Below, one piece after another: positions 41,340-47,369 of a stretch of DNA of 64,000 nucleotides; the stretch's first letter is position 1; the number at the start of each line of letters is the position of its first letter. Both the position numbers and the translations under genes were made by a program. The DNA is from Prochlorococcus sp. MIT 1223 (lineage in GTDB: Bacteria > Cyanobacteriota > Cyanobacteriia > PCC-6307 > Cyanobiaceae). Under the pieces are notes generated by a model. That model did not search any database and was not told the DNA's origin. It saw only the letters and a list, made by a program, of their open reading frames with translations. The DNA lies in contig NZ_CP139303.1 in assembly GCF_034092465.1 (NCBI RefSeq), forward strand, positions 1 through 64,000. Direction: 5' to 3'.

Positions 41340-41873
41340 TTAGTCTGAGGGAATATCAATTTTATTTTCTTCAGTAGAAATTGCATCTTGATTAAGTGCT
41401 TCACTTTCATTTTTAGATGACTTTTTAGAGATATCTTCTGGTGATTCTTGATTAGTATTATTTATTTGTTCTTGAGGTTTGGAGGGCCTTTCAAATGGAT
41501 TTGGTTTAGGACTATTTGAAAAAGAGTTTCTATTTTGATCGTTATTTCTATTATTTCTAAAATTATGACTTCTTCTGCTGTCTGAGCTTGTTCCTTCAGA
41601 TCGATATTCATTAAGAAGATCTTCCAATTTTCCCTGTTCAAGCATCTCTCCCAGAGTCCTTAAAGCAAATCCAAGAACTGCCACAGTTGAGCGAAGATTG
41701 AAAGCCTCTTGAAGAGAGCGTGCAGAACGCATTTCATTTTCACTTAATCTAATCCTGAAACCCCCTCCATCTCTATTCCCTTGGCCTCTCCCTCCCTTAA
41801 AGCCACTTCTTGAATCATTACGACTGTTCTCGAAGTTCCTTCCACTTCTAGGATCGCTGTAAGAGTCACCCAT
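41340..41873 (-). CDS. Cyanobacterial protein with RGG-like, disordered termini
   Basis: A 177-residue protein of unknown function. The N-terminal 40 residues are Arg/Gly/Asn/Ser-rich (FKGGRGQGNRDGGGFR), resembling RGG boxes of RNA-binding proteins. A folded helical core (about 42-92: RLSENEMRSARSLQEAFNLRSTVAVLGFALRTLGEMLEQGKL...) is the only hydrophobic part. The rest is Asn/Arg/Ser-rich, then acidic and low-complexity. It lies 7 bp upstream of trpS on the same strand, which may hint at a link with translation, but this is positional inference. Confidence 0.7.
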   Translation of the reverse strand: MGDSYSDPRSGRNFENSRNDSRSGFKGGRGQGNRDGGGFRIRLSENEMRSARSLQEAFNLRSTVAVLGFALRTLGEMLEQGKLEDLLNEYRSEGTSSDSRRSHNFRNNRNNDQNRNSFSNSPKPNPFERPSKPQEQINNTNQESPEDISKKSSKNESEALNQDAISTEENKIDIPSD

Positions 41874-42103
41874 GGCTTTAAGCCTAATTAATAAAAGAAA
41901 GTGTGACTCATTTTGCGGTTTTATGGGATAAATTCACCTCATCCTTCAGCAGATTCACATTTCCTCGAATCAATTTAATCAATTCCTAATGCGAAAATAT
42001 TTCAATAAATAATTAGTAATTAAAGTAAAAACATGGATTTGTAAGGGCTTAGAGCCCATGTGTTTGCTTTAATCTGTATATGAGCTAAGAAGATGTTGAA
42101 CCA

Positions 42104-43477
42104 ATGAATTTTGTGAAAAATTTTTCATCTCTTTCATTCCCTTTAAATACAAAGGTCCTTCCCTTGGCGAAAGTTGGAACCCTATTAGGTTCCGTCCTGA
42201 TTGGCCAATGGTTAATAAGTGATGTGGCTCATATCCCTGGAGGAGGAATTGGAATTCTTGTTGTGGGTTTTGGGGCTTGGTACTTCCTTCAACCTGCGAA
42301 ACCCTCTTTTAAGGCTCCTTCTTCTGTTCAAGGTTGGATAAGCCGATGTAACGAAGTGCTTGAACAATTTGAATTTTTGGAAGGACAAGAAGATTTTTTA
42401 AGAAATAGAAAAAAAAGAGTTAAGTCTCTTGAGGAAATACTTGATAGATCATTTCCTCAAAAGGTTTCTTTTACAGGTACTTCAGAGATTGCATATCCTG
42501 AGAAATCAGAGGTAAGCACTGCTTTATCAGTTACTCAATCTTTAAATCTTTCATATAACACTTCTTTACCTATAAGAGATGATCTTTGGCAATTACCTCA
42601 ATCACTTGTTGAGCAAGACGCGATTATTTATGTTTTACCTGTTCCTCTAAGAGCTGTTGATCTGCTTTGGTTAAAGAAAATTCCAGAAGATCAACCATCA
42701 TGGTTGATGATTTCTTGGGAGGATTGCGCTTCTTGGACTGACCAACTTAAGGATCTCCAGGCTCAGCTGCCGGAAAGATGGTCTTCAAGAATTATTAGAT
42801 GGAATATGCCAAATGAAGAAATGAAAAATGTTTTAAGTCCTATTCGCAGGGTTTTAGATAAGCCTAAAATTAATATTGATTCAACCAAGCAAAGATTGTT
42901 ATCAAGGTTACATTCTTCCTGGCAATCTGATTTAGAGCAATTAAGAAGAGAGAAATTTAAGCTTCTGCAAAACCGGTCTCAATGGATAGTAGCTAGTGCT
43001 GTATTTGCCTCTCCTCTCCCTAGCGGAGATCTTTTGTCTGTCGCAGTTGTTAATGGATTAATGATTAATGAAATGGCCAAAATTTGGTCATGCAAAATGA
43101 ATCCAGAACTTCTTCAGGCAGTTGCACGCCAACTTGCTTGTGCGGCAGTTGCTCAAGGAGTAGTTGAATGGAGCGGTCAAGCACTTTTAGGAGTTGCAAA
43201 ACTGGATGGAACAAGTTGGATAGCTGCAGGCTCTATGCAAGCATTGAGTGCAGCTTATTTAACAAGAGTTGTAGGTCGTTCAATGGCCGATTGGATGGCT
43301 ATAAATAATGGACTATCTGAACCCGATTTGGAATTATTAAACCAACAAGTGTCTCAATTAGTTTCAAATGCTGCAGAACAAGAACGTGTCGATTGGAGAC
43401 GTTTTCTAAAGCAAGGAAAGGATTGGATAGAATTACAAGTTGGAGATAATAGTAATAGTGAAATCGTAGAAGCTTAA
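42104..43477 (+). CDS. DUF697-type membrane protein with degenerate GTPase domain
   Basis: A 457-residue protein. Hydrophobic stretches at about 22-45 and 48-62 anchor the N-terminus. The middle (about 110-265) resembles an Era/MnmE-like GTPase with the order strand-P-loop-switch-G4, but where a P-loop should be it reads FTGTSEIAYPEKSEV, without GxxxxGK(S/T), and the NKxD position reads WED. The C-terminal ~150 residues are helical with small residues (FASPLPSGDLLSVAVVNGLMINEMAKIWS, ...GSMQALSAAYLTRVVGRSMADWM), as in DUF697, a domain fused to GTPases in cyanobacteria. Probably a membrane-associated scaffold that no longer binds GTP. Function unknown. Confidence 0.7.
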   Translation: MNFVKNFSSLSFPLNTKVLPLAKVGTLLGSVLIGQWLISDVAHIPGGGIGILVVGFGAWYFLQPAKPSFKAPSSVQGWISRCNEVLEQFEFLEGQEDFLRNRKKRVKSLEEILDRSFPQKVSFTGTSEIAYPEKSEVSTALSVTQSLNLSYNTSLPIRDDLWQLPQSLVEQDAIIYVLPVPLRAVDLLWLKKIPEDQPSWLMISWEDCASWTDQLKDLQAQLPERWSSRIIRWNMPNEEMKNVLSPIRRVLDKPKINIDSTKQRLLSRLHSSWQSDLEQLRREKFKLLQNRSQWIVASAVFASPLPSGDLLSVAVVNGLMINEMAKIWSCKMNPELLQAVARQLACAAVAQGVVEWSGQALLGVAKLDGTSWIAAGSMQALSAAYLTRVVGRSMADWMAINNGLSEPDLELLNQQVSQLVSNAAEQERVDWRRFLKQGKDWIELQVGDNSNSEIVEA

Positions 43478-43549
43478 TTTGAATTAATCTTCTACCGTGA
43501 TCTTAAATAATCAATATTTACTATTTAATTTTCTATGGGAATTACAACT

Positions 43550-44515
43550 ATGAATAAGAATAGAAAGATTTTTGCTAAATTGAATATATTTTATTTTTTT
43601 CTTTTAGCTATCTTTGTATCATCTTGTTCGCTGCAAAAGATAAAGATAATTGAAAACAAAAAGGCTAAAAAACCTATTGCTCTTACTACGTTTACAGTCC
43701 TTGCAGATATAGCAAAAAATGTTTCCGGCGATAGATTTATTGTCAGGTCTATCACTAAGCCAGGCGCTGAAATACATACTTATCAATTTACACCTAGCGA
43801 TCTTGTTAAAGCCAAGAATGCTGACTTGATTATAGAGAATGGATTAGGACTTGAATCATGGATAAGAAAGTTTACTTCTAGTCTTGGAAATGTTAAGACT
43901 GTGGTCTTAACAGATGGTATGGATCCAGTCTTGATTGATGGTGATAAATATTCTGGTAAACCTAATCCTCATGCCTGGATGTCTCCAAAAAGAACAATTC
44001 TATATGTTGATAAACTTGTTGATGCTTTTACAGAAATGGATCCTGAGGGAGAAGAAATTTTCATTAAAAATGCATTAAATTATAAAAAACAACTTTTAAT
44101 ACTCAATCAAGAATTAAATTATTATATTTCTTCAATTCCAGAAAAGAGAAGATATCTAGTTACATGTGAAGGGGCTTTCTCTTATCTAACTAAAGATTAT
44201 GGAATGAAAGAGGCTTTTTTATGGCCAGTCAATTCTGAGAGTCAGGTTACTCCTAAAAGGATGGCTTCCTTAATAAAAATAGTTAAAGAAAATCAAATAC
44301 CGACAATATTTTGTGAGACTACTGTTAGCTCTAAAGCACAGAAAGAAGTAGCAAGAGCAAGTGGAGCAGCCTTTGGGGGGAGTTTTTTTGTAGATTCACT
44401 TTCAGAATCAGATGGACCTGCTCCTACCTTGCTAGATCTACAACGTTATAACGTACGTCTTATAAGAGATGGCCTAACGACTGACCTACAAAAAATCAAT
44501 GAGTTATCAAAATAA
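43550..44515 (+). CDS. Metal ABC transporter substrate-binding lipoprotein, manganese-type
   Basis: Cluster A-I (TroA/ZnuA/MntC) binding protein. Starting from Met at 43550, MNKNRKIF... gives a basic n-region, a hydrophobic core and a lipobox VSSC, so Cys26 would be lipidated and the protein anchored to the membrane; an ATG at 43535 would add five residues. The metal ligands, numbered from the 43535 ATG, fit His81 (EIHTYQ), His146 (NPHAWMS), Glu212 (TCEGAFSY) and Asp287 (FVDSLS). A Glu at the third position, where zinc proteins have His, points to Mn2+. No His-rich loop is present. It overlaps the ATPase gene by 17 bp; a symbol such as mntC is not certain. Confidence 0.88.
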   Translation: MNKNRKIFAKLNIFYFFLLAIFVSSCSLQKIKIIENKKAKKPIALTTFTVLADIAKNVSGDRFIVRSITKPGAEIHTYQFTPSDLVKAKNADLIIENGLGLESWIRKFTSSLGNVKTVVLTDGMDPVLIDGDKYSGKPNPHAWMSPKRTILYVDKLVDAFTEMDPEGEEIFIKNALNYKKQLLILNQELNYYISSIPEKRRYLVTCEGAFSYLTKDYGMKEAFLWPVNSESQVTPKRMASLIKIVKENQIPTIFCETTVSSKAQKEVARASGAAFGGSFFVDSLSESDGPAPTLLDLQRYNVRLIRDGLTTDLQKINELSK

Positions 44516-45299
44516 ACAAATTCAAGAAAAGCTTTTCAGAATAGAGGCTGATCAACTATGTGTTGATTACAACGGAACAGTTGCTTTGTATGACGCAAGT
44601 TTAAAAGTAAAGCAAGGTTCAATTTGTGGTCTGGTTGGAATGAATGGGGCTGGTAAATCTACTTTTTTCAAGGCTTTAATGGGCTTTGTTCGTCCATCTA
44701 GAGGGAAAATCAAAATAAATGGAGTTGATGTTGGACAAGCTCAAAAAGATCAAGCCGTTGCTTATGTGCCCCAAAGCGAAGGGGTTGATTGCTCTTTCCC
44801 TGTGAGTGTATGGGATGTAGTAATGATGGGATTATATGGGTCTATGAATTTTCTAAGAATTCCTCGAGAGTCTGATAGAAGAGCCGTATGGAATGCTCTT
44901 GAAAGGGTTGATTTAATTGATCTAAGAACAAGACCTATAGGCAATCTCTCTGGGGGGCAAAGAAAGAGGGCTTTTTTGGCAAGAGCAATAGCCCAAAGAG
45001 CTTCTGTTCTTTTGCTTGATGAGCCATTTACAGGAGTTGATGTTCCAACTGAGAAGTTAATGGCACAATTGTTCCTTCAATTTAGACAGGAAGGGAGAAC
45101 TATTTTAATTTCAACTCATGATTTAAGTCATGTAAGGGATTTTTGTGACTTAGTAGTTCTCATTAATAAAACAGTTTTGGCATATGGAGAAACATCAGAA
45201 GTATTTACTAGAGAAAATTTAAGTATGACTTTTGGTGGATTACCTCCTGATCCTCTTTTTGGTTCAAGTTCGTCCAGTCAAATGTTAAGTAATGATTGA
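44499..45299 (+). CDS. Metal ABC transporter ATP-binding protein
   Basis: ATPase of the manganese/zinc-type importer. It has 266 residues with Walker A GMNGAGKST (47-55), Q-loop YVPQSEGVD (89-97), ABC signature LSGGQ (150-154), Walker B LLLDEP (171-176) and switch His in STHDLSH. This is the whole ABC core with a short N-terminal extension. It starts inside the substrate-binding gene's last 17 bases, and its last 8 bases overlap the permease start, so the three are tightly coupled. Confidence 0.94.
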   Translation: MSYQNKQIQEKLFRIEADQLCVDYNGTVALYDASLKVKQGSICGLVGMNGAGKSTFFKALMGFVRPSRGKIKINGVDVGQAQKDQAVAYVPQSEGVDCSFPVSVWDVVMMGLYGSMNFLRIPRESDRRAVWNALERVDLIDLRTRPIGNLSGGQRKRAFLARAIAQRASVLLLDEPFTGVDVPTEKLMAQLFLQFRQEGRTILISTHDLSHVRDFCDLVVLINKTVLAYGETSEVFTRENLSMTFGGLPPDPLFGSSSSSQMLSND

Positions 45300-46161
45300 T
45301 TTATTAATAGCCCTAGATCCTTATTCTTTGTTGTTTGACCCTCTTTCGCATGAGTTTATGAGAAGAGCTCTTATGGTTAGTGCTCTCGTAGGTGCTGTTT
45401 GCGGACTTTTGTCTTGCTATATGACATTAAAAGGTTGGGCTTTGATGGGCGATGCAGTTTCTCATGCAGTTATGCCTGGCGTAGTAATTGCATATGCTTT
45501 AGGAATTCCATTTTCCGTTGGAGCATTTGTTTTCGGGGTTGGTTCTGTTGCGTTAATAGGCTTTGTAAAGCAGAAATCAAGAATTAAGGAAGATACTGTA
45601 ATAGGGCTAGTTTTTACCGGTTTCTTTGCTCTTGGCTTGGTACTTGTTTCAAAGATAAAAAGTAATATAGATTTGATGCATATTCTTTTCGGAAGTCCAC
45701 TAGGTATTTCTCAGTCAGATGTTAATCAAACAATAATTATTTGTTTTATAGTTGTATCTATTTTATTGATCTTTAGAAAAGATTTAATGCTTTATTGCTT
45801 TGATCCTACACATGCAAGATCTATTGGCATAAATACTGGATTAATTCATTATTTACTCTTATCGGTTTTAAGCCTTTCGGCTGTTATAGGACTTCAAACT
45901 GTTGGCATTATTTTGGTTGTTGCAATGCTTATAACCCCTGGAGCAACTGCATATTTACTTACTGATAAGTTTGATAGAATGACTATTCTGGCCGTTATAA
46001 GTAGTGTTGTGTCCAGTGTTCTTGGAGTATATATTAGCTACTGGTCAGATATTGAAACAGGAGGTTCAATAGTTCTGGTTCAGACATTAATTTTTTTACT
46101 AGCATTTTTATTTGCCCCTAGATATGGAATATTTAAAAATCGTTCATCTTTGACTTTATAG
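45292..46161 (+). CDS. Metal ABC transporter permease
   Basis: Membrane subunit of the same importer, ABC-3 (ZnuB/MntB) family. It has 289 residues with about eight hydrophobic helices. The family-typical segments are FMRRALMVSALVGAVCGLLSCYMTLKGWALMGDAVSHAVMPGVV (about 23-66), ILFGSPLGIS and VGIILVVAMLITPGATAYLL. The start ATG at 45292 overlaps the ATPase gene by 8 bp. It is followed after 2 bases by the DUF4336 gene. Confidence 0.93.
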   Translation: MIDLLIALDPYSLLFDPLSHEFMRRALMVSALVGAVCGLLSCYMTLKGWALMGDAVSHAVMPGVVIAYALGIPFSVGAFVFGVGSVALIGFVKQKSRIKEDTVIGLVFTGFFALGLVLVSKIKSNIDLMHILFGSPLGISQSDVNQTIIICFIVVSILLIFRKDLMLYCFDPTHARSIGINTGLIHYLLLSVLSLSAVIGLQTVGIILVVAMLITPGATAYLLTDKFDRMTILAVISSVVSSVLGVYISYWSDIETGGSIVLVQTLIFLLAFLFAPRYGIFKNRSSLTL

Positions 46162-46163
46162 GT

Positions 46164-47369
46164 TTGATTAATAATATTAATAAAAGTGAAATAGACACTC
46201 GATATCAGGATCAGGAATGGCCATGGTGGCCTTTGTTTCCTCTTTACCCTTATGGGCGAAAAAGAACAATTTTCAGTGAATTAATCCCAAATCAAATTTG
46301 GAGTTTTGAGCAACTACAAGGTATTTATTATGTTGCTGTTCCCATAAGACTATCTGTTATAAAAGTTTCAGGTGGTTTGATGTTATTTAACCCTCTTCCA
46401 CCAACTATTGAATTATTGAATCAGTTATCAGAGCTTGAAAGAAAACATGGACCTGTAATTGATATTGTTTTGCCAACTGCATCTGGATTGGAACATAAGA
46501 TCTCTCTCCCCTCTTTATCTAGAGCATTCCCTAAAGCAAATCTATGGATATGTCCTGGACAATGGAGCTTCCCAATTGATTTACCATTGACTTGGATTGG
46601 AATTCCTCAAAATAAAACTAGAGTATTGTTTGAAGATGGACTACCTCATAGTGATAAATGTGAATGGTTTTCTCTAGGTCCCTTGGACATTGGCCTGGGA
46701 AGATTTCAAGAGGTTTCTTGTTATCACAGATCTTCTAATTCTTTGCTTGTTACTGATGCGTTGGTTGGGATTAGTGCGAGTCCTCCAAAGTTGTTTGAGT
46801 TAGATCCGACCCCTCTTTTGTTCCATTCACGGGAAAGCGGAGAAGAACCTCTTGTAGATAGCTATGAAGCAAGAATTAAGGGTTGGAGAAGACTTGTGTT
46901 GTTTTCTTCTTTCTTGAAACCTGCAAAACTTTCTATTCCCTCATTGCTTGACGTTTTTAGTAAATCTTTTAAGCCTGGCCTTCGAAACCCGAGTGCTCAT
47001 TTTGGAATTTATCCTTTTAACTGGGAGAAAGGGTGGGAAGAATCTGCTAGCAATCTTGTTGGAGAAAGAGATTCTCTTGTGCAAATTGCACCAGTTATTG
47101 AGAGACTTGTTTTTCCAAGAGCCAAAGATACTTTTGTGTCATGGCTTGATAAGGTCGGATCTTGTAGAGGGCTCAAATGGTTAATCTCTTCTCATTACAA
47201 TGCACCTGTTAAATTTTCTAGAAATCAAGCTATTCAGTTGAAGAAAAAAATTAACAGGAGAATATGGGCTCAAGGAGAAGGCAATTGGACCTTTCTTGAT
47301 TGGCTAGATAAAAAATTATTGAACTTTGGAGTTGTCCCTGAAAACCCTCTTAAATCATTTAATGATTAA
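46164..47369 (+). CDS. DUF4336 domain-containing protein
   Basis: A 401-residue soluble protein. Its core, VAVPIRLSVIKVSGGLMLFNPLPPTIELLNQLSEL and VIDIVLPTASGLEHKISLPSLSRAFPKANLWICPGQWS, looks like a metallo-beta-lactamase-related fold in which the classical HxHxDH motif is not present; this is DUF4336. The reaction is unknown. The start is TTG at 46164, since no ATG exists near the beginning. It lies 2 bp after the metal permease gene, so co-transcription and a link to metal handling are possible. The 3' end overlaps the convergent DUF760 gene by 11 bp. Confidence 0.78.
   Translation: MINNINKSEIDTRYQDQEWPWWPLFPLYPYGRKRTIFSELIPNQIWSFEQLQGIYYVAVPIRLSVIKVSGGLMLFNPLPPTIELLNQLSELERKHGPVIDIVLPTASGLEHKISLPSLSRAFPKANLWICPGQWSFPIDLPLTWIGIPQNKTRVLFEDGLPHSDKCEWFSLGPLDIGLGRFQEVSCYHRSSNSLLVTDALVGISASPPKLFELDPTPLLFHSRESGEEPLVDSYEARIKGWRRLVLFSSFLKPAKLSIPSLLDVFSKSFKPGLRNPSAHFGIYPFNWEKGWEESASNLVGERDSLVQIAPVIERLVFPRAKDTFVSWLDKVGSCRGLKWLISSHYNAPVKFSRNQAIQLKKKINRRIWAQGEGNWTFLDWLDKKLLNFGVVPENPLKSFND

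Follow-up and report, generated by a model that had tools for sequence, protein, structure and literature searches.

Within the window, the whole 64,000-nucleotide stretch of Prochlorococcus sp. MIT 1223 DNA that was analysed, a 457-residue DUF697 protein is very likely a conserved pseudo-GTPase, in that a GTPase fold is modelled, the GTP-binding motifs are lost and the gene is conserved. The best explanation of the data, with a rough probability of 0.6, is that it serves as a membrane-anchored, nucleotide-free DUF697 scaffold of the slr1306 family which docks a partner via helix alpha3, an intact DUF697 GTPase (type B) being the first candidate for that partner. Pseudo-GTPases, including scaffolds, are known in eukaryotes; for the cyanobacterial DUF697 case we found no report in the open-access literature searched. 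Should the reading hold, a dead GTPase would serve a conserved process, probably at a membrane, throughout nearly an entire family of photosynthetic bacteria that are very abundant. The P-loop kept by relatives in most other cyanobacteria sampled would then provide a natural intermediate series for asking what the nucleotide is for, and helix alpha3 would be a concrete handle on an uncharacterised family that is reportedly tied to CO2 uptake by one mutant study. Given its retention across nearly the whole family and its kinship with a protein linked to CO2 uptake, the window protein is probably a former GTP switch that was turned into a docking part. The features concerned are given in Table 1.

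Table 1. Pseudo-GTPase gene, its parts and its downstream neighbour, in window coordinates
Feature	Coordinates	Strand	Basis
slr1306-type DUF697 pseudo-GTPase gene, 457 aa	42104..43477	+	ORF, Pfam, genome survey
N-terminal hydrophobic hairpin, residues 21-61 (helices 21-40, 48-61), probable membrane anchor	42164..42286	+	hydropathy; model with low to moderate pLDDT
Pseudo-G domain, residues 116-262: beta1, alpha1, beta3, beta4, alpha3, beta5, alpha4, beta6, no beta2/switch I	42449..42889	+	model, structure comparison, alignment
Former P-loop, residues 126-134 (TSEIAYPEK), mean entropy 3.09 bits	42479..42505	+	alignment, entropy
Helix alpha3, residues 184-192 (AVDLLWLKK), 1.06 bits, lowest of the pseudo-G segments measured, proposed interface	42653..42679	+	entropy
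Former NKxD, residues 204-208 (SWEDC), mean entropy 3.38 bits	42713..42727	+	alignment, entropy
DUF697 domain, residues 267-424	42902..43375	+	Pfam
Metal ABC importer (ZnuA-type binding protein, ATPase, permease), downstream neighbour in part of the family only	43535..46161	+	ORFs, Pfam/NCBIfam

Lost motifs and retained fold

The gene is an ATG-started open reading frame of the extent originally given. Its DUF697 domain, which had been said to remain at the C-terminus, matches Pfam PF05128 with an E-value of 9.2e-36 and a score of 123.5 bits (cut-off 27.7); the protein has no match to any Pfam GTPase family, even at E 1. With the slr1306 family (NCBIfam NF049994) it shares, in the same order, an N-terminal hydrophobic hairpin, helices, an alpha/beta domain, a long helix and DUF697; its score of 119.5 bits against the family model, on residues 241-438 only, is far below the cut-off of 490, and yet profile-profile alignment (below) extends over the full length. 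The source genome (1,795,922 bases in one contig) encodes two further DUF697 proteins, of type A (L001) and type B (L003), from genes far from this one. Both match DUF697 and MMR_HSR1 and, like the window protein, combine DUF697 with an Era-type G domain, but with the motifs kept. A tblastn search of 50,697 phage records found no phage copies of the gene.

The loss of the P-loop and NKxD, proposed from this one sequence, is borne out across the window's family. The segment FTGTSEIAYPEKSEV, residues 123-137, lies on the strand-loop-helix aligned to the P-loop of relatives (GGKSVGKST), and WED (205-207) sits at the position of their NKQD. Among the 53 same-family rows, which represent 34 of 35 sampled genera and include the window (the genus without a row is g21, and few genomes of the large genera were read, e.g. 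two rows for g2), P-loop-like, DxxG-like and NKxD-like motifs number 0, 0 and 0, with G1 taken as GxxxxGK[ST], G3 as DxxG, and NKxD searched even by the relaxed pattern [NST][KQ]xD. Since the motifs are absent from 53 of 53 sampled orthologs while long open frames are kept, the loss is beyond chance. The corresponding counts are 54, 3 and 53 in 61 other slr1306-type rows, 13, 13 and 12 in 13 type A and B paralogs (the exception is L003, where NKxD reads NRCD), and 4, 4 and 4 in four type-C rows; because rows were chosen by score and family, the fractions for groups other than the window's family should not be taken as population estimates. Altogether, 178 distinct DUF697 proteins were aligned, and 131 were kept for the tree.

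The slr1306 relatives thus mostly keep the P-loop and NKxD, both of which the window protein lacks. The proposed likeness to an Era-type GTPase with its motifs lost stands for the window's family but needs qualifying, as the relatives are already odd: in a 23-row mixed alignment (A4), slr1306-type rows are without the switch I and strand beta2 present in rows of types A, B and C, and 58 of the 61 other slr1306-type rows are without DxxG. The slr1306 family is therefore like the window protein in these two respects. Seven other rows have no P-loop, namely L107, L113, L126 and L127 (f25), L129 and L130 (f16) and L160 (f35); the sequences GLPGVGKQ in L107 and GQAGSGGA in L129 look like decayed P-loops. 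Type-C proteins L094-L097, L099, L102 and L140 (families f4, f22 and f28) carry a P-loop, a DxxG-like site, NKxD and DQYLP-like signatures, and are probably the slr1306 orthologs in those families. Type C followed by the slr1306 family is suggestive of graded motif loss.

The AlphaFold model, made solely from the 52 sequences of the same-family alignment (A1), none with a P-loop, has a pLDDT of 81.8 and a pTM of 0.78, with block means of 86-97 for residues 71-330, except 77 at 231-240. Strands lie at 119-126, 147-151, 173-178, 199-204 and 230-233, with helices in between, and a long helix (254-302) runs into the DUF697 helices. Foldseek alone gave no match to the model at E below 0.001 (best, 7.6e-3, a bacterial dynamin), and its list mixes G domains with other alpha/beta folds. 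VIA-align, run on Foldseek's 1000 best, gave Z-scores of 9.7-12.2 for the 50 entries listed, and all but two TIR domains (ranks 45 and 49) look like GTPases, to judge from entry descriptions that in some cases give the complex alone. The top row is the mitofusin Fzo1 (Z 12.2, rmsd 5.6, 208 residues spread over 73-404); other rows include mitoribosomal EngA (Z 11.4, rmsd 3.2, 138 residues), Era 7c1o (Z 11.0, rmsd 3.9, 140 residues), EngA 5x4b (Z 10.7, rmsd 2.8, 126 residues) and EngB (Z 10.7, rmsd 3.9, 136 residues), all compared with the predicted model. In the P-loop relative L034 the elements come in the same order, and its 50 listed entries have Z 14.3-16.4. Hence residues ~115-260, with Z about 10-12, are confidently modelled as a retained GTPase-type alpha/beta fold, on whose presence in residues 110-265 the original prediction had been staked.

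When A1 was compared by hhalign with an alignment of P-loop relatives (A2), the match had a probability of 100 and an E-value of 1e-46 over 429 columns, including the P-loop and NKxD regions. By hmmsearch of the PDB, the same-family profile had 10 matches up to E 10, the best (0.12) being an apolipoprotein and none a GTPase, and the profile of the P-loop relatives reached Der/EngA at 7.7e-16. Because the PDB sequence search with the same-family profile gave no GTPase, kinship with GTPases rests on profile-profile and fold comparison. The hhalign match to P-loop-bearing slr1306-family proteins is end to end, from which descent from a GTPase follows; judged by its sequence, the 457-residue protein is a descendant of P-loop proteins, and the order that had been proposed, a GTPase fold and then DUF697, emerges from both model and alignment. 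An origin outside the GTPases, by the joining of an unrelated TIR- or flavodoxin-like alpha/beta domain to DUF697, would suit the weak Foldseek list, with its ArsH, CpaE and TIR entries, and the two TIR rows of VIA-align. It is nevertheless extremely improbable given the full-length homology to P-loop proteins, the P-loop at the same place in the sister family f11 (two rows) and the half-decayed P-loops of L107 and L129.

The hydrophobic helices noted earlier were also recovered. Kyte-Doolittle windows of 19 residues exceed 1.4 between residues 24 and 62, where the model places the two N-terminal helices (block pLDDT only 58-75); a further stretch above this value, 172-191, corresponds to beta4-alpha3 in the model. 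Based on the model and hydropathy, the protein is probably membrane-bound.

Selection, distribution and gene tree

Within A1, the former P-loop and NKxD have the highest mean entropies of the segments measured (Table 1), and the same segments have 1.04 and 0.82 bits, respectively, in A2, whose 39 relatives were picked for having a P-loop. Helix alpha3 is next to DUF697 residues 303-401 (1.05 bits) in A1, and beta4 has 1.54 bits vs 1.55 for the long helix; the beta4-alpha3 stretch is conserved in the P-loop relatives as well (1.59). It follows from this pattern that the pocket was released and that alpha3, conserved already before, is still constrained. Rather than marking a new interface, the low entropy of alpha3 may stem from core packing or from a feature of older date. 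A selection analysis of the motif region had been advised; based on 210 pairs of 21 sequences from genus g4, which is not the window's genus, dN/dS is 0.17 for the pseudo-G domain, 0.04 for DUF697 and 0.10-0.11 for the N-terminal parts. Mean pairwise identity is 0.32 for the pseudo-G domain vs 0.58 for DUF697. By these measures, the pseudo-G domain is under selection, though not for the pocket.

The lower identity and higher dN/dS of the pseudo-G domain, along with an entropy that peaks at the former pocket, are what would be expected if the DUF697 membrane domain did the work and the old G domain were a vestigial spacer, decaying as a tolerated linker. This is the most serious competitor of the scaffold reading but is still judged unlikely, since a dN/dS of 0.17 is clearly purifying, alpha3 and beta4 match DUF697 303-401 and the long helix in entropy, and the pseudo-G domain is present in all 53 same-family rows. 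Binding of GTP or another nucleotide in a non-canonical pocket is distinctly improbable. While the fold is retained and G125, the first P-loop glycine, occurs in 90 % or more of the 23 A4 rows, this residue is outside the nearly invariant positions of A1, GK[ST], DxxG and NKxD are all missing, a few residues are inserted at the former P-loop in many rows, and the pocket positions are the most variable segments measured.

As to the conservation that the original prediction asserted, 281 of the order's 299 genomes carry the gene (match at E 1e-60 or better), and the g4 data point to purifying selection. The remaining 18 genomes, including all eight sampled from g21, have paralog-level matches only, or none. 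A repeat profile search of these 18, among which single draft genomes may be incomplete, yielded C-terminal matches only (E 1e-10 to 1e-19 or slightly better) in 17 and nothing in one; the loss in g21 therefore looks real. The g21 genomes are G114, G192, G195, G196, G199, G215, G229 and G253; type A was read in three of them (L087-L089). Of 242 genomes drawn across the class (31 from the window's family), 236 match the slr1306 model when paralogs are counted, and 118 score above its cut-off.

In the gene tree, the members of the window's family form a single clade (SH-aLRT 100) with a long stem (1.4), and this clade groups with f11 (SH-aLRT 99), whose two rows keep the P-loop and have lost NKxD. 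Parsimony counts four changes of P-loop state, but repeated independent loss was not borne out by AU comparison, in which long branches are in play: a tree uniting all 19 P-loop-less rows gains 6.69 log units over the quick tree (p 0.594), and one uniting the window's family with the six f25/f16 rows gains 17.41 (p 0.799). Since the united trees fit as well or better, the gene tree lends no support to separate losses, and more than one P-loop loss is still suggested only because f25 holds both kinds.

Candidate partner and proposed role

Under the scaffold reading, the 457-residue protein would be an slr1306-family ortholog whose G domain has no nucleotide pocket left. This pseudo-G domain would work, without GTP binding, as a fixed-state scaffold; the N-terminal hairpin and the DUF697 helices would hold the protein at a membrane, and the alpha3 face would dock a partner. 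The likeliest partner would be the intact type-B DUF697 GTPase (here, L003), as in heteromeric GTPase/pseudo-GTPase assemblies. Scaffolding through alpha3 is put forward tentatively, at somewhat below even odds, and type B as the actual partner is doubtful; both estimates were lowered because alpha3 is conserved in P-loop relatives too and because 15 gene-bearing genomes are without a strong type-B match.

Of 62 loci in other families, 14 have a type-B gene directly 3' of, and on the same strand as, the slr1306-type gene, a count made up of 10 flagged by script plus L052-L054 and L156, which an overlap rule had dropped but which were read at the loci. The 14 belong to families f2, f12, f17, f24, f25, f26 and f28, a type-C gene taking the slr1306 place in f28, and two of them (L126 and L131) involve P-loop-less f25 proteins. 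Based on these loci, slr1306-type and intact type-B genes are a probable conserved gene pair in seven cyanobacterial families. The pair loci are L046, L052-L054, L126, L131, L144, L148, L155-L158, L163 and L135 (type C in L135). At L051 (f33), the type-B gene is 438 bases away from the slr1306-type gene. The pair was found in none of the 80 named loci kept (Nostocales and close allies, up to 3 kb fetched), a set to which Synechocystis Slr1306 itself does not belong. Strict co-dependence with type B was also considered and is ruled out, as the two genes are not strictly co-inherited: in all eight sampled g21 genomes the gene is missing and a type-B-level match is present (E 2e-91 to 6e-86), and 15 of 281 gene-bearing genomes, most of them drafts, have no L003 match better than 1e-30, type B being told from paralogs in the window's family by E-value alone.

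The process suggested by orthology would be inorganic-carbon homeostasis. Mutants of slr1306 reportedly need high CO2. Slr1306 of Synechocystis is called a putative CO2-concentrating component in the title of Zhang et al. (cited in PMC5472144). Inorganic-carbon homeostasis may be the process for that reason, although a role of the window protein in the CO2-concentrating mechanism is rather unlikely. A longer shot is a stepwise dismantling, from the full motif set (type C) through loss of the switch regions (slr1306 family) and of NKxD (f11) to loss of the P-loop (window's family), the last step yielding a constitutive nucleotide-free subunit of the picocyanobacterial carbon-concentrating machinery for which intact type B would supply the GTP cycle. 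The stem of the P-loop loss is one that we take to be the stem where the window's lineage changed its carboxysome and Rubisco type.

Among known systems, E. coli YcjF is a DUF697 protein that lacks a G domain altogether and whose gene lies next to that of the P-loop protein YcjX; it resembles the window protein in having DUF697 without a working GTPase domain; E. coli was matched by the DUF697 profile among the controls. Septins, according to an excerpt of PMC10731463, are a GTPase family with members degenerated to pseudo-GTPases, in which the hetero-oligomeric interface matters; unlike the window protein, they are eukaryotic filament proteins without DUF697. An excerpt of PMC10211241 lists CENP-M as a scaffold and states that two of three p190RhoGAP pseudo-GTPase domains bind no nucleotide and one binds GTP, their role being given there as unknown; these domains are likewise GTPase-like without activity, but eukaryotic and with unrelated partners. 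Bacterial dynamin-like membrane GTPases are often operon pairs (PMC6104087, excerpt); they differ from the window protein in being larger, in not being DUF697 proteins and in being described as GTPases. The open-access literature searched yielded no report of a bacterial DUF697 pseudo-GTPase, none of a pseudo-GTPase in cyanobacteria, and no paper with DUF697 in its title or abstract; DUF697 does appear as a primer target in an excerpt of PMC8091003.

Neighbouring genes

The original prediction placed the protein next to a metal importer. This is correct for the window, where a ZnuA-type gene on the same strand begins 57 bases after the 457-residue gene and is followed by ATPase and permease genes. 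It does not extend to a general link, as the ZnuA-type gene comes next in 39 of the 72 same-family loci fetched but in only 14 of 34 genera; flanks were at most ~1.5 kb, some contigs end early, and genus g4 alone supplies 21 of the loci. Function as an accessory of the adjacent importer would be in keeping with the short gap, the shared strand and the 39 loci. However, 14 of 34 genera rules it out as a general role, and in 70 loci outside the family (slr1306-type or paralog) there was no such binding protein and one ATPase match, at the paralog locus L137; this alternative is thus very improbable.

Upstream, a TrpS gene is present in 54 of 72 same-family loci. The divergent neighbour in the window (41340-41873, - strand) encodes a Gly/Ser/Asn-rich protein of 177 residues with no significant match in Pfam or NCBIfam, and it is beside the gene in 57 of the 72 loci. 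A perfect five-pair hairpin, GGGCTTAGAGCCC, at 42045-42057, 46 bases 5' of the start codon, was flagged as terminator-like and may act as a terminator or as a regulatory stem in the 5' region. Terminator-like sites number three, vs 1.0 expected, and promoter-like sites four, vs 5.6 expected, which is no excess over chance. Beyond the importer, on the + strand at 46164-47369, lies a gene for a DUF4336 protein (E 5.9e-115), whose listed open reading frame starts with TTG, two bases after the end of the metal permease gene.
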